Source: Clostridiaceae bacterium BRH_c20a (GTDB lineage: Bacteria; Bacillota; Peptococcia; Peptococcales; BICA1-8). Taken from it: a stretch of 64,000 bases of DNA. The notes beneath the pieces are model-generated. The model was not told the origin of the DNA. It made no database searches and saw only the letters and a list, made by a program, of their open reading frames with translations. Positions 46,710-55,047 of this stretch are shown one piece after another. Position numbers and translations under genes: made by a program. The first letter of the stretch is position 1. Every line of letters starts with the position of its first letter. The DNA is taken from positions 62,001-126,000 of the forward strand of contig LADT01000086.1 of NCBI GenBank assembly GCA_000961765.1. The letters run 5' to 3'.

Positions 46710-47248
46710 TTAAGTTCTCCCTCCCTTTCAGTATTTTTCCCATGTCCTACAGTTTGGTGGCAGGATACACATGATGTTTGATTTGCTGCTGTTGAATGAG
46801 CAATTTGTTGAGTCTGATTTTGTGGTACTAAATTATCTAAGACATGACATTCTTCACAATTCTCATTTAGTATTTTAGCCCTGGCTCTTCGTGCTAGTTC
46901 AGGACTCATCCGTTTAAATTCGAATGGCGTAGGCTTCTCAACTAAATGCACATATAACTCGGAGAGCTTGCCTGCTTTAGTAACCAGCATCTGCAGCGTA
47001 TTCCCGGGAATGTGACAGGACTGGCAGTCAGCTGTTATGCCTAAATTATTCATACCATGGGTTGACTGCTGCCAACTACTAACCGCGGTATTCATCTCGT
47101 GACAACTCATGCAGTATTCAGTTTGGGAAGTATAATGACTTGCACCCAAGGTAAAAAATAACCCGGCAATTATTAAACAGATTGGTAAAAGCCAGCCTAC
47201 CTGTTTAATTTTCAAACTTCGCTCATCTTTAACCACCTTTGTGTCCAA
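46706..47248 (-). CDS. NapC/NrfH/HaoC-family tetrahaem quinol dehydrogenase
   Basis: 180 residues: one N-terminal membrane helix then four haem sites, CMSCH, CQSCH, CEECH and CVSCH, as in NrfH. It would take electrons from menaquinol and pass them to the multihaem cytochrome encoded next, whose start it overlaps by 4 nt. Starts at TTG behind AAAGGAGG. First gene of the operon, about 116 nt downstream of the predicted transcription start. Confidence 0.88.
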   Translation of the reverse strand: MDTKVVKDERSLKIKQVGWLLPICLIIAGLFFTLGASHYTSQTEYCMSCHEMNTAVSSWQQSTHGMNNLGITADCQSCHIPGNTLQMLVTKAGKLSELYVHLVEKPTPFEFKRMSPELARRARAKILNENCEECHVLDNLVPQNQTQQIAHSTAANQTSCVSCHQTVGHGKNTEREGELK

Positions 47249-47303
47249 TACTTAAACCTCCTTTCGTGAAAATTAGAACCTTTTCCCACATGCCTATATG
47301 CAT
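47229..47303 (-). CDS. Possible 24-codon upstream ORF overlapping the NapC/HaoC-family start
   Basis: ATG at 47303 gives MHIGMWEKVLIFTKGGLSIGHKGG and a TAA inside the next gene. GGAGGTG lies immediately before the ATG, which is too close for a standard site; an internal ATG at codon 5 has the opposite problem. It may be a coupling leader peptide or chance. Confidence 0.2.
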   Translation of the reverse strand: MHIGMWEKVLIFTKGGLSIGHKGG

Positions 47304-47351: not shown

Positions 47352-47392
47352 AAGATATGCCTTGCTACTCTAAATAGTAACAGGCATATCTT
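47352..47392 (-). terminator. Intrinsic terminator of the haem operon, overlapping the next promoter
   Basis: AAGATATGCC / GGCATATCTT stem followed on the minus strand by TTTTTTTT. It ends the ahbC-resB-ccsA-hemA transcript, but its DNA also contains the -10 and nearest activator repeat of the hao/nap promoter. Confidence 0.8.
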
Positions 47393-47449
47393 AATAGCTA
47401 CTTAGTACGTGCTTAATAAATACTTAAATAAAACTTAATAAATTATTAA
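47371..47449 (-). promoter_or_regulatory. Promoter of the hao/nap operon with six 11-bp-spaced TTAAG repeats
   Basis: Plus-strand pentamers CTTAA/CTTAG/CTTAA/CTTAA/CTTAA/ATTAA begin at 47390, 47401, 47412, 47423, 47434 and 47445, exactly 11 bp apart. On the minus strand the nearest TTAAG is followed by 13 bp and TATTTA (47376-47371) as -10. The repeats are like OmpR/PhoB-family operators and the nearest one takes the -35 position. Confidence 0.8.
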
Positions 47450-50952: not shown

Positions 50953-52149
50953 CTATCCATTACAAACCACCTTTTCTGTTATTCCTATTTCCTCGTCAGT
51001 TAAATAACAGGCTGGGTCTTCCTGCCAGAAATCGCCAGATACTGCTTCTGCTCGAGATCGGAAATTTCCGTTACACATATCAAGCCATTTGCACTGAACA
51101 CAACGGCCTTTTAATAGCTTTTTGCGGTCTTTTAAGCCAGATAATATAGGGTGGCTTGTGTCAGTCCAGATATCGCCAAAGGATCTTTCCCGTACATTAC
51201 CAAAAGTATAATTTTGGGTGAACTGATCTGGATGCACATTACCAAACCAATCAACAGCACCAATAGCTATCCCCGTTCTGTTGCCGCCATTTATTTTTAA
51301 TAAATTAAAAGCATGCTGCGCCATGGGGTTATTTTCCTTTAATAGTTTTAAATATATATAAATTCCATCAGCATGGTTATCCACAGTAAGAATCTCTTTC
51401 TCAATTTTTTTATTTTTAAAGTATTTAACTTTTTCATATATTAGATCTAAGGCTGCCCTAGTCTCCCCATGGGTAATATCCTGGTTAACCATGGAATTAC
51501 CTCTTCCGGAATAAGCCAAATGATAGAAACAGACTCGCGGGATTCTTTCTTCTTCAATTAAATTGAAAATACTCTCCAGTTCTCGGTGATTATGTCTATT
51601 AATTGTGAAACGAAGGCCTACCTTTTGCTCTACTGCAAGGCAGTTCCTTATACCTCGTAAAGCTAAATCAAAAGCACCTTTTTTTCCACGGAATTTGTCA
51701 TTGTTCTCACCTAACCCATCTAGGCTTATCCCAACATAACCGACCCCAATTTCTTTTAGCTTTTGGGCGGTATGTTGATTTATTAGGGTCCCGTTGGTTG
51801 AAAATGTGGTGCGAATACCTTTATTAGTAGCATATTGAGCTAAGTAGAGGATGTCTTCCCTCAACAGTGGTTCTCCGCCAGAGAAAAGAATTACAGGAAC
51901 TCGAAAACGGTGAAGATCATCAATAAATTTTACCGCTTCGGTTGTTGTTAATTCATTTTCATACTTTTGAGCATCTGACCCTGCATAACAATGAATACAC
52001 TTTAGATTACATGTCTTGGTACAGTTCCACACAACTACAGGGCCCCTATTTAGTGTTGTACCACACTTAGCTCCTTGAACATCTGAGCTATATCTTAGGG
52101 AGTCGCCATAATTTTTTGTGTCAACCATTAGTTTACTAACACCTATCAA
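50953..52149 (-). CDS. Radical SAM haem-pathway enzyme, AhbC/NirJ1-like
   Basis: 398 residues. Radical SAM site CTKTCNLKCIHCYAG, then FSGGEPLLREDI; the C-terminal SPASM-like Cys-rich part has CVQCKWLDMCNGNFRSRAEAVSGDFWQEDPACYLTDEEIGI, characteristic of AhbC/NirJ1. AhbC removes acetate side chains from didecarboxysirohaem on the route from sirohaem to haem used by anaerobes. Start TTG behind AGGAGG. It leads the operon with resB, ccsA and hemA, so it supplies haem for cytochromes c. Confidence 0.87.
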   Translation of the reverse strand: MIGVSKLMVDTKNYGDSLRYSSDVQGAKCGTTLNRGPVVVWNCTKTCNLKCIHCYAGSDAQKYENELTTTEAVKFIDDLHRFRVPVILFSGGEPLLREDILYLAQYATNKGIRTTFSTNGTLINQHTAQKLKEIGVGYVGISLDGLGENNDKFRGKKGAFDLALRGIRNCLAVEQKVGLRFTINRHNHRELESIFNLIEEERIPRVCFYHLAYSGRGNSMVNQDITHGETRAALDLIYEKVKYFKNKKIEKEILTVDNHADGIYIYLKLLKENNPMAQHAFNLLKINGGNRTGIAIGAVDWFGNVHPDQFTQNYTFGNVRERSFGDIWTDTSHPILSGLKDRKKLLKGRCVQCKWLDMCNGNFRSRAEAVSGDFWQEDPACYLTDEEIGITEKVVCNG

Positions 52150-52205
52150 TGCACTTCCTCCTAACGTTTGTCATTTAAATATCCCAATAAAATAATATAG
52201 CCGCT

Positions 52206-52287
52206 ATTATAATAATAGCGGCTATATCTTAATACACACTTAGTTAATACTAAATAAATTATTAAACAATTATTAATAATTTATTAA
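52206..52287 (-). promoter_or_regulatory. Promoter of the haem operon with six 11-bp-spaced TTAAG repeats
   Basis: Plus-strand pentamers CTTAA, CTTAG, CTAAA, ATTAA, ATTAA, ATTAA begin at 52228, 52239, 52250, 52261, 52272 and 52283. After the nearest TTAAG come 13 bp and TATTAT (or TATAAT 3 bp further). The -10 lies in the centre of a 33-bp near-perfect inverted repeat (52195-52227) that can act as a terminator for upstream transcripts. The radical SAM gene starts about 55 nt downstream. Confidence 0.8.
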
Positions 52288-52334
52288 ATTTTTCCAGCTA
52301 ATATTGATAATTAAAACTTTAAGCTTTGCTTTTT

Positions 52335-52411
52335 GACAATAAAATACAGGCACTGCTGCCTGTATTTAAGAGGAGGTGTATGAAAAAGGGGCATTTGATA
52401 ATAAAAATCCT
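52335..52411 (-). ncRNA. Candidate C-rich small regulatory RNA, about 75 nt
   Basis: A promoter of the same type as the two respiratory operons (array at 52437-52485, 13 bp, TATAAT) points at a stretch with no ORF that ends after about 75 nt in an intrinsic terminator (AAATACAGGCA / TGCCTGTATTT plus TTTTATTGT). The predicted RNA has two C-rich single-stranded runs, GCCCC and CACCUCCUC, the latter complementary to Shine-Dalgarno sites. Established analogy: RoxS/RsaE of Bacillus and Staphylococcus, C-rich sRNAs under ResD/SrrA control. No sequence identity is claimed. Confidence 0.6.
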
Positions 52412-52417
52412 GCTTTT

Positions 52418-52485
52418 ATTATAATAGCGCACATATCTTAACCAATACTTATGAAATATTTAATAATTTATTAAATATTTGTTAC
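52418..52485 (-). promoter_or_regulatory. Third 11-bp repeat array with -10 box, driving the candidate sRNA
   Basis: Plus-strand pentamers CTTAA, CTTAT, TTTAA, ATTAA, GTTAC begin at 52437, 52448, 52459, 52470 and 52481, exactly 11 bp apart; 13 bp then TATAAT (52423-52418) follow on the minus strand. The array abuts the response regulator stop codon. Confidence 0.75.
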
Positions 52486-52488
52486 AAA

Positions 52489-53193
52489 TCACATATTACA
52501 AAATTTATACCCTACTCCCCATACAGTTTGCAAGTATTTCGGCTTAGCCGGATCCTTTTCTATCTTTTCTCTGATTCTCCTCACAAACACGGTAATTGTT
52601 CCAGTATCACCGATAAGGTCCTCATCCCACAGTTGATTATACAATTGCTCCCTAGTAAAAACCTGACCTGGGTTTCTCACCAGGAAGCAAAGTAAATCAA
52701 ATTCTTTAGGGGTAAAATTAATAATTTTCCCCTGCAGCTTTACCTCGTAATTTGCACAGTTTATTTCTAAACCTCCCATACATAAGTACCAATCTTTTTT
52801 TTCACATTTGTTGAGAGGCCTGTTTACTACCCGCCTTATTAAGGCTTTAACCCTTAGTGATAATTCAATAGGGCTAAAAGGTTTAGTTAAGTAATCATCG
52901 GCTCCCATGTTGAAACCTACACTTTTATCGACTATATCACTCTTGGCAGATAACATAATAATTGGAACATTACTACTTTGCCTAATAGTTTTACACACTT
53001 CAAAACCATCAATTTCCGGAAGCATAACGTCAAGAATAATTAAGGCAGGATCTTCATTACTGAAAACATCAAGTGCCCTTTCCCCATTAGCAGCATAAAG
53101 AAAATTATAACCTTCTTTTATCAAAATTTGCTGTACTATTTTCTTAATACCTTCTTCATCATCCACTAGCAAAATCTTTAAAGGTTTACCCAT
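52489..53193 (-). CDS. OmpR-family response regulator (ResD-like)
   Basis: 234 residues from MGKPLKILLVDDEEG, with GGTGGTGGGAG upstream; it overlaps the kinase stop by 8 bases. Receiver: DD near the start, phospho-acceptor in ALIILDVMLPEIDG, Lys in YLTKPFSPIEL. The C-terminal OmpR winged helix runs FTPKEFDLLCFLVRNPGQVFTREQLYNQLWDE to YLQTVWGVGYKF. OmpR-family dimers bind direct repeats spaced 10-11 bp, matching the three nearby arrays. It is the likely activator of the hao/nap operon, the haem operon and the small RNA. Confidence 0.93.
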   Translation of the reverse strand: MGKPLKILLVDDEEGIKKIVQQILIKEGYNFLYAANGERALDVFSNEDPALIILDVMLPEIDGFEVCKTIRQSSNVPIIMLSAKSDIVDKSVGFNMGADDYLTKPFSPIELSLRVKALIRRVVNRPLNKCEKKDWYLCMGGLEINCANYEVKLQGKIINFTPKEFDLLCFLVRNPGQVFTREQLYNQLWDEDLIGDTGTITVFVRRIREKIEKDPAKPKYLQTVWGVGYKFCNM

Positions 53194-54862
53194 TTCTCCC
53201 ACCACCATTTTTTATTTTGGGCAATTCAGGAATACCCACTTTAAATACACTGCCTCTGTCGATCCTGCTTTCTACCGTAATCCACCCACCATGCATCTCT
53301 ACCAATTCTTTTGCTAAAGCAAGCCCCAATCCAGTTCCACTGTATTTTCTCGAATTTGAACTGTCTGATTGGGTAAAGCGTTCAAAAATTATTTTTTGTT
53401 CATCCTCCCGAATGCCAATACCTGTATCGCTGATGGTAATAATTACTTCTTTATCATTCTTTTCATAAGCTACAGAAATTATAATCCTGCCGCCCTTATC
53501 AGTAAATTTGACGGCATTACTCGCTAAATTTTCTACTACCCTGCGTATTTTTTCCGGATCTGCTTTAATCAGAGGAACATCCGGTAAAAAACATGTATGA
53601 AATATAATTCCCTTTTGCTTAGCAAGTGGCAAAATAACTCCTTCGACCGAACCAATGACATCAGTCAAATCTACAGTATCTATTTTAATTTCATTTCTTC
53701 CAGCCTCAATTTTTGCCAGATCTAAGATATTATTTATTAGTCTTAATAAATTTTCACTATTCTTTCTTATTTCCTCCAAGTTTTGTATTTCTATTGTTCT
53801 TTCTTCGGGCATATCTGTTAATAGCAGCTCTGTAAAAGCCATTATTGAGGTTAGGGGGGTCCGAAGTTCGTGACTCATTATAGCTAGAAACTCAGATTTA
53901 TAACGGTTAGCCTCTTTTAATTGGAAGTTGACATTTTCTAATTCCTGCTGTTTATTTTTTAATACTTCATTGGCCTTTTCTAATTCATATGTGCGCTTAT
54001 CAACTTTTAATTCTAAATTGTAATATAAGTCCCGCAGCTGGCTAGCCATAACCTGAAAGTGGGTGGCTAACTGCTCAATTTCCCCTTCTGCTCTAATATT
54101 AGTAAAATCAACATTAAGATTGCCTGCACCTACTTGCCCCATAGCCTTTTCAAGATCGCTTAGTGGCTGCACAACTAACCGGTTAACCAATATGTAGATG
54201 CTGCCAATACTTGCTCCAATTAAAAGCAGAAAAAACCCTGAGTATCTAAGAACATTAGCTGATAAATTTGCCACAAAAAGGTCCATGGGCATAATCAAGC
54301 TTATTGCACCTCCAAGGCTACCTTCCAGATAACCTTCTTTGGGATAGCCAGCAACATCTAGTTCTCCTACTGGGCCCCCATGACAAGGAAGACAAGATTC
54401 TTCAACTTTTAATGGTATTATATATCTAAAAACCCTCTTATCATCTATCTCACTTTCAGCCCAATATTCCTGGAGATTGGGATTTGCTTTAAACTTTTGT
54501 AATACTTCAATCTCAAAATCATCCGGTGCATTTTGCATATCCCGGTATATAAGGCGAGTTTGCTTGATACTATAATTGGTCATTTCAGCAAAAATTTTAC
54601 TTATACCCATACCAACAGCCGCAGGATTAAGATGTTTAAACTCAAAGCCCCCTTGGGAATCACAATTGATTTTGTTTTGATTTTGGGCTATAAATTCTCT
54701 AGTGGCAATCAATTCCTTAGTTATAACCTGGGCCTTCTCCCTCATCTCCATCATAGCCTGACGCTTTTGCTGGTTAATATCCCACATAAAATTTATCGAA
54801 ACAATTAATATCATAACAACTGTAATCGCCCACATAAACCTATACGTTAAGCTTCTAACCAA
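53186..54862 (-). CDS. Sensor histidine kinase with a haem-c-binding (DUF3365-like) sensor domain
   Basis: About 558 residues; I start at TTG after GGGGGTTTC. Order: TM1; extracytoplasmic domain of ~165 residues with a single haem site ESCLPCHGG and the RYIIPLKV strand typical of DUF3365/Tll0287-like sensors; TM2 (SGFFLLLIGASIGSIYILVNRL); HAMP; coiled coil; HisKA (FLAIMSHELRTPLTSI); HATPase with NAVKFTD, DTGIGI and GTGLGLALAKELV. The covalent haem could sense redox state, NO or O2. Encoded upstream of its response regulator and beside the genes for haem supply and haem-c proteins. Confidence 0.9.
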   Translation of the reverse strand: MVRSLTYRFMWAITVVMILIVSINFMWDINQQKRQAMMEMREKAQVITKELIATREFIAQNQNKINCDSQGGFEFKHLNPAAVGMGISKIFAEMTNYSIKQTRLIYRDMQNAPDDFEIEVLQKFKANPNLQEYWAESEIDDKRVFRYIIPLKVEESCLPCHGGPVGELDVAGYPKEGYLEGSLGGAISLIMPMDLFVANLSANVLRYSGFFLLLIGASIGSIYILVNRLVVQPLSDLEKAMGQVGAGNLNVDFTNIRAEGEIEQLATHFQVMASQLRDLYYNLELKVDKRTYELEKANEVLKNKQQELENVNFQLKEANRYKSEFLAIMSHELRTPLTSIMAFTELLLTDMPEERTIEIQNLEEIRKNSENLLRLINNILDLAKIEAGRNEIKIDTVDLTDVIGSVEGVILPLAKQKGIIFHTCFLPDVPLIKADPEKIRRVVENLASNAVKFTDKGGRIIISVAYEKNDKEVIITISDTGIGIREDEQKIIFERFTQSDSSNSRKYSGTGLGLALAKELVEMHGGWITVESRIDRGSVFKVGIPELPKIKNGGGRNG

Positions 54863-55047
54863 GGAGAAACCCCCATTTAACATATATTTGTTTATTTATA
54901 TAATAACAAATTTTTATTAACTTTAGCAATTAATGTAATTATATTAATAAATTGTTAACATTTAAGAAATAACTGCCCCATTCCCTAATATTTATAATGT
55001 TATCAGAAAATAAAGTGTACTGATTGTTTGTGTTTGTAGCTCCACGC

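Follow-up and report, generated by a model that had tools for sequence, protein, structure and literature searches.

Behind the gene for an OmpR/PhoB-type response regulator of Clostridiaceae bacterium BRH_c20a, tandem 11-nt repeats and a -10 region lead into about 80 nt that end in a predicted terminator, and the question raised by this locus is whether a small RNA is made there under the control of the neighbouring regulator, as had been proposed in a first-pass annotation. The locus was analysed in a window of 64,000 nucleotides that is part of contig C19 of the 4.5-Mb genome, and its features are collected in Table 1. The analysis strengthened the promoter reading and left the small-RNA reading plausible but unproven, a functional, lineage-specific small-RNA gene in the 3' untranslated region of the regulator being a real possibility that falls a little short of an even chance.

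The genes follow each other on the minus strand in the order histidine kinase, regulator, candidate RNA stretch, array 2, nirJ1, ResB-like, ccsB and hemA, with nirJ1 as the first gene of a haem and c-type cytochrome maturation operon. Past hemA, after array 1, NCBIfam models identified a NapC/NrfH-like cytochrome, a multihaem cytochrome, a NapG-like ferredoxin and a NapA-like reductase. The putative ResB-like protein was assigned by reading its sequence and had no NCBIfam match. The best NCBIfam matches of the regulator were the YycF, RpaB and PhoB models, all below cut-off, and no ResD model was present among the 25 matches listed. The sensor of the kinase is a Tll0287-like (DUF3365/sCache_heme) extracytoplasmic c-haem domain (PF11845, E 9e-30), and the fusion of this CXXCH-bearing domain to HAMP and HisKA places the protein among the sCache_heme sensor kinases. 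This assignment is new relative to the first-pass annotation, and with it the haem/redox context claimed there for the regulator was supported. The DUF3365/Tll0287 family has recently been redefined as sCache_heme, with covalently bound c-haem, and a HAMP-fused signalling member was found to bind NO tightly and to form no stable oxygen complex (PMC12889525, preprint). By analogy, the kinase described here would probably respond, in the course of nitrate respiration, to NO or to a nitrogen-oxide/redox signal related to it.

Table 1. Features of the kinase-regulator locus and its surroundings; positions are those of the window.
Feature	Position	Strand	Basis
Sensor histidine kinase	53186..54883	minus	Pfam: Tll0287-like, HAMP, HisKA, HATPase_c; CLPCH read in translation
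OmpR/PhoB-type response regulator, cognate of the kinase	52489..53208	minus	NCBIfam; overlaps adjoining kinase gene
Array 3, four tandem 11-nt repeats (NNNNTATTAAG type), predicted regulator binding site	52437..52480	minus	PWM
-10 region TATTATAAT	52418..52426	minus	sequence
Predicted small RNA, ~78-81 nt	52334..52414	minus	inferred from promoter and terminator
GCCCC, predicted unpaired	52388..52392	minus	sequence, fold
CACCTCCTC, anti-Shine-Dalgarno run, predicted unpaired	52370..52378	minus	sequence, fold
Terminator hairpin, 11-bp stem, GCAG loop, short U-tract	52342..52367	minus	fold, terminator score
14-codon frame MKKGHLIIKILLLL, AGGAGG (52371-52376) 3 nt before ATG	52380..52424	plus	sequence, ORF list
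Array 2, six 11-nt units, before nirJ1	52228..52293	minus	sequence comparison, matrix
nirJ1 promoter -10 (TATTAT 52217-52212) within perfect 16-bp inverted repeat	52195..52227	minus	fold -22.0 kcal/mol
NirJ1-type radical SAM protein	50953..52149	minus	TIGR04054 above cut-off
Array 1, five 11-nt units, before nap-type operon	47390..47444	minus	matrix
nap promoter -10 (TACTAT 47379-47374) within hemA terminator hairpin	47352..47392	minus	d = +25 to +33; fold -19.1 kcal/mol

Read along the minus strand from 52480 to 52437, array 3 consists of the units AAATATTTAAT, AAATTATTAAA, TATTTCATAAG and TATTGGTTAAG, followed by ATATGTGCGC and then by TATTATAAT, in which the -10 box can be either TATTAT (52426-52421) or TATAAT (52423-52418). 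Matches to a loose TTAA-repeat pattern did not consistently outnumber those to its reversed control, and the pattern was replaced by a weight matrix trained only on the units of the nap and nirJ1 arrays. When 1.18 Mb of the genome were scanned with this matrix on both strands, the four units of array 3 reached a score of 25.0, compared to 16.4 for the best site outside the cluster. A pattern built from all three arrays had three exact matches in 4.5 Mb, all of them in the cluster, but this count is circular, unlike the matrix test. The first T of the -10 lies exactly 10 nt past the last repeat, and the identical offset was found at the nap and nirJ1 promoters and in four contexts from relatives (L278, L280, L281 and L285). 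On these sequence features, the assignment of the array 3 promoter to the same family as the nap and nirJ1 promoters is well supported. From proximity and co-occurrence we infer that the neighbouring regulator binds array 3; cross-recognition by other PhoB-type regulators may also occur, because TTAAG repeats are found near other such regulators in the same family of genomes. In PhoB/PhoP-type promoters, tandem 11-nt half sites overlap the -35 region and the -10 follows just downstream. The promoters described here likewise have tandem 11-nt direct repeats with the -10 close downstream, but their arrays are longer (4-6 units) and in most members the -10 lies inside a terminator hairpin.

A close relative of the kinase was detected in 26 of the 399 phylum genomes, the own genome included, and in none of the rest of the class genomes searched; the regulators were 61-67% identical in four genomes. 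In the four contexts named above, an array follows closely upon the stop codon of the regulator, its end lying exactly 10 nt ahead of a -10 box. TGN precedes this box, which sits in a hairpin followed by a T run, and cytochrome or cytochrome-maturation genes lie downstream wherever the downstream gene was readable. In the window, nap and nirJ1 are preceded by promoters of this same layout. Both the position behind the regulator and the spacing are thus conserved at array 3, but its promoter hairpin has decayed (-3.0 kcal/mol vs. -12 to -22 kcal/mol at the six other such promoters). As the array behind the regulator in the relatives is placed as a promoter for cytochrome or cytochrome-maturation genes, the promoter at array 3 would be expected to work. 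The claim of a regulon promoter is thus strongly supported by the top rank of array 3 under a matrix made from the other two arrays and by the position and spacing that the relatives share. No array was found directly ahead of the nirJ1 orthologues in L172 and L173.

With transcription starting about 7 nt past the -10 (about 52414-52411), the predicted RNA folds into an unstructured 5' part and one hairpin. This hairpin (AAATACAGGCA-GCAG-TGCCTGTATTT at 52367-52342, followed by TATTGTC) has a predicted fold of -14.9 kcal/mol and a z of -4.1, with none of 200 shuffles equally good. By the d'Aubenton-Carafa terminator score it reaches d = +25 when read on the minus strand; for the plus strand d is -1.5, and a terminator in that direction was rejected. 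As to the U-tract, UUUUAUUGUC, it is both short and broken, and the site was absent from the list of a consensus scanner. The first-pass description of an ORF-less stretch of about 75 nt with a clear terminator can therefore be kept for the most part, as array, -10 and hairpin are all real and the RNA would be only a few nucleotides longer, but "clear" was slightly generous for a broken U-tract. "ORF-less" was nearly right, no credible gene being present: a 27-codon frame (ATG, 52394-52311) continues across the terminator and, like every other frame in the RNA, lacks a ribosome site in range, and the 14-codon frame on the plus strand had gone unmentioned. By prediction, then, the stretch has its own promoter and terminator and no credible coding frame, as is expected of a small-RNA gene. 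The two C-rich motifs CACCUCCUC and GCCCC lie outside the terminator stem, as had been claimed, and both are unpaired in the predicted fold.

Between the regulator gene and array 2 there is no other plausible terminator than this hairpin, which places the candidate RNA within the 3' untranslated region of the regulator. Probably the hairpin also serves as the terminator of the regulator gene, and for this reason the RNA could be a by-product. An ungapped alignment of 90 nt shows 72% identity between the array 3 block and that of the nirJ1 array and promoter; to judge from this alignment, the two are probably duplicates, in which case their likeness is partly inherited and not independently selected. 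It is quite possible, although on the doubtful side, that the array/promoter block behind the regulator was simply duplicated: the copy on the nirJ1 side would have kept the promoter embedded in a hairpin, whereas the upstream copy would have lost its hairpin and the next hairpin would have become the terminator of the regulator, leaving an RNA without a target. A short terminated transcript may then still form, or read-through may add to the expression of nirJ1. Such a history agrees with the single array behind the regulator in the relatives, with the degenerate promoter hairpin at array 3 and with the outcome of the conservation and target searches described below. Against it, the four repeats, the 10-nt offset and the -10 are all intact, a terminator right after a strong activated promoter is wasteful unless a short RNA or attenuation is useful, and two unpaired C-rich motifs per 80 nt are somewhat unusual at 37% GC.

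The hairpin also stands between two co-oriented promoters that are 200 nt apart and face nirJ1, an arrangement that would suit a leader in which the hairpin either halts transcripts from array 3 or lets them through before they reach array 2 and nirJ1, so that the element tunes nirJ1 instead of acting in trans. Nevertheless, no antiterminator fold was evident, no leader peptide was present in range, and array 2 has a complete promoter plus a terminator-like hairpin that would also halt read-through; such attenuation is therefore very unlikely.

When the body of the RNA was searched for at the DNA level, no homologue was found in the 46 class genomes or in the 399 phylum genomes, and it was absent behind the regulator in the relatives (contexts L032-L035 and L278-L296, all from other genera). 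Two phylum matches were discarded as chance (one in a Clp-type ATPase gene and one upstream of dnaG), as were several class matches whose common part was just TATAAT...AGCAGGA and all those found in the own genome. Absence of the stretch from relatives that keep the kinase-regulator pair had been named beforehand as a finding that would refute the small RNA, and this is what was found in the relatives from other genera. Small RNAs show a fast evolutionary turnover. Given this turnover, and as the relatives all belong to other genera, the lack of conservation weakens the case for the RNA rather than closing it. Rfam gave no family at the gathering threshold and none in a permissive search up to E = 10, the covariance model of the RsaE/RoxS family (RF01820) included. 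When pairing was predicted with 1,027 start regions, from about a quarter of the genome, the RNA did no better than shuffled RNAs that kept the anti-Shine-Dalgarno run (mean -16.6 vs. -16.4 kcal/mol, best -34.3 vs. -34.0 kcal/mol). The RNA thus has a generic complementarity to Shine-Dalgarno sequences and no visible specific target, and the proposal that it acts on oxidative or iron-costly enzymes found no support.

Taken alone, the anti-Shine-Dalgarno run is only mildly unusual; an 8-mer such as CACCTCCT falls in about 1% of the 75-nt intergenic stretches of this genome, as estimated from counts. Besides, CACCUCCUC is the reverse complement of GAGGAGGTG, and 39 of the 49 intergenic copies of AGGAGGTG in this genome (about 80%) serve as ribosome sites for frames of 20 codons or more, which raises the alternative that the plus strand is the meaningful one and that AGGAGG-TGT-ATG starts the 14-codon hydrophobic peptide of Table 1, which resembles a signal sequence or an Ibs-like hydrophobic peptide. 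If the minus-strand RNA were its antisense, the two would resemble a type I toxin-antitoxin pair. The plus-strand reading is improbable, as a 3-nt spacing between Shine-Dalgarno and start is rare (7 of 389 GGAGG sites, with a peak at 6-9), no good plus-strand promoter lies directly upstream, the terminator score of that strand is negative and the sequence is present as a single copy in the genome. With just 14 codons and this unusual spacing in the plus-strand frame, the motif itself does not clearly favour either strand.

The reading as a functional small RNA is favoured by the top score of array 3 under an independently trained matrix, by its 72% identity with the nirJ1 block, by the promoter position that the arrays of other genera lead one to expect, by the direction of the terminator towards the minus strand, by the lack of a plausible coding frame in the RNA and by unpaired C-rich motifs of the kind that Firmicute small RNAs use on Shine-Dalgarno sequences (PMC9410917, PMC4409812), and also by an NO-binding member in the sensor family together with the induction of RoxS by NO through ResDE. 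It is disfavoured by the lack of a homologue, of an Rfam match and of a target signal, by a hairpin that the regulator needs anyway and by a motif that may be the Shine-Dalgarno sequence of the other strand. Under this small-RNA reading, the haem-sensing kinase would be stimulated during nitrate respiration by the probable signal named above, and the phosphorylated regulator would bind array 3 and switch on the short RNA in parallel with the nap and nirJ1-ccs-hemA operons. Transcription of the RNA would end at the terminator that also closes the kinase-regulator message, and the unpaired GCCCC and CACCUCCUC of the RNA could pair with the Shine-Dalgarno and start regions of messages to block their translation, as RoxS and IsrR do. 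Possible targets would be messages of its own regulon or those for exported proteins that start with GGAGG...AUGAAAAAG.

Three known small RNAs offer precedents. In Bacillus subtilis NO acts through ResDE to induce RoxS, and in Staphylococcus aureus through SrrAB to induce RsaE (PMC4409812). The candidate shares with them, by prediction, its short length, unpaired C-rich regions and intrinsic terminator, as well as a promoter that would be bound by an OmpR-family regulator, with a kinase that would respond to redox/NO, and a link to nitrate respiration (PMC4409812, PMC8139620). It differs in that its kinase is of the Tll0287/sCache_heme type, in its place at the 3' end of the operon of its own regulator, and in having neither an Rfam RsaE match nor conservation across species in the genomes searched. 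The parallel to RoxS/RsaE drawn in the first-pass annotation was thus made closer by a sensor family with an NO-binding member, but the candidate is not a member of RoxS/RsaE; by analogy, a RoxS-like NO circuit is plausible here. The C-rich segments of IsrR pair with Shine-Dalgarno sequences and thereby repress nitrate-respiration messages in S. aureus (PMC9410917), a kind of pairing that is also predicted for the candidate, but IsrR is controlled by Fur and iron, has three stem-loops plus a terminator and is conserved in Staphylococcus, whereas the proposed trigger of the candidate is a nitrate/haem regulator. NarS is encoded at the 3' end of narK, a nitrate-respiration message (PMC8139620), and like this and other small RNAs from 3' untranslated regions the candidate lies at the 3' end of a host gene, whose terminator it would share; the host gene is in this case a response regulator, and an activated promoter of its own is predicted for the RNA. 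The broader proposal, that an NO-sensing c-haem Cache kinase outside the Bacilli controls a C-rich anti-Shine-Dalgarno RNA at the 3' end of its regulator, as a convergent equivalent of ResDE-RoxS in an anaerobic nitrate respirer, is unlikely. If true, it would mean that nitrogen-oxide-sensing two-component systems were coupled to a C-rich translational repressor more than once in the Firmicutes, and it would provide a defined regulon (nap, nirJ1-ccs-hemA and the small RNA) for testing that coupling. Apart from the RNA, the conserved promoter layout makes regulons predictable for the poorly studied Tll0287/sCache_heme kinase-regulator pairs.

Some further observations concern these promoters. 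An activated -10 embedded in a terminator-like hairpin was seen at nap (47352-47392), at nirJ1 (52195-52227) and in L278, L280, L281 and L285, so that this promoter-in-terminator layout recurs across genera for this type of kinase and regulator. For such promoters we propose that a transcript reading through from the gene upstream would fold into the hairpin and terminate, while one begun inside it would lack the 5' arm and escape. The -10 of array 3 (TATTATAATA) is palindromic and there is a plus-strand TTGATA-16-TATTAT match at 52395-52422, making transcription antisense to the 3' end of the regulator possible. Separately, TATAATnnnAGCAGGA (52405-52426) is more frequent than its reversed control in several genomes of the class (for example, 33 vs. 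4 in G003 and 26 vs. 5 in G007). In the nap leader, a small frame on the minus strand (47228-47300, ATG at about 47300, with GGAGGTG ahead) begins MHIGMWEKVLIFTKGG... and overlaps the start of the NapC-like gene, a possible leader peptide or case of translational coupling. Finally, 11-nt TATTAAT repeats lie upstream of the orthologous kinase genes in L033 (1560-1600) and L034 (2080-2115); their score under the nap/nirJ1 matrix was not outstanding, and their position suggests that the kinase genes are autoregulated in both.
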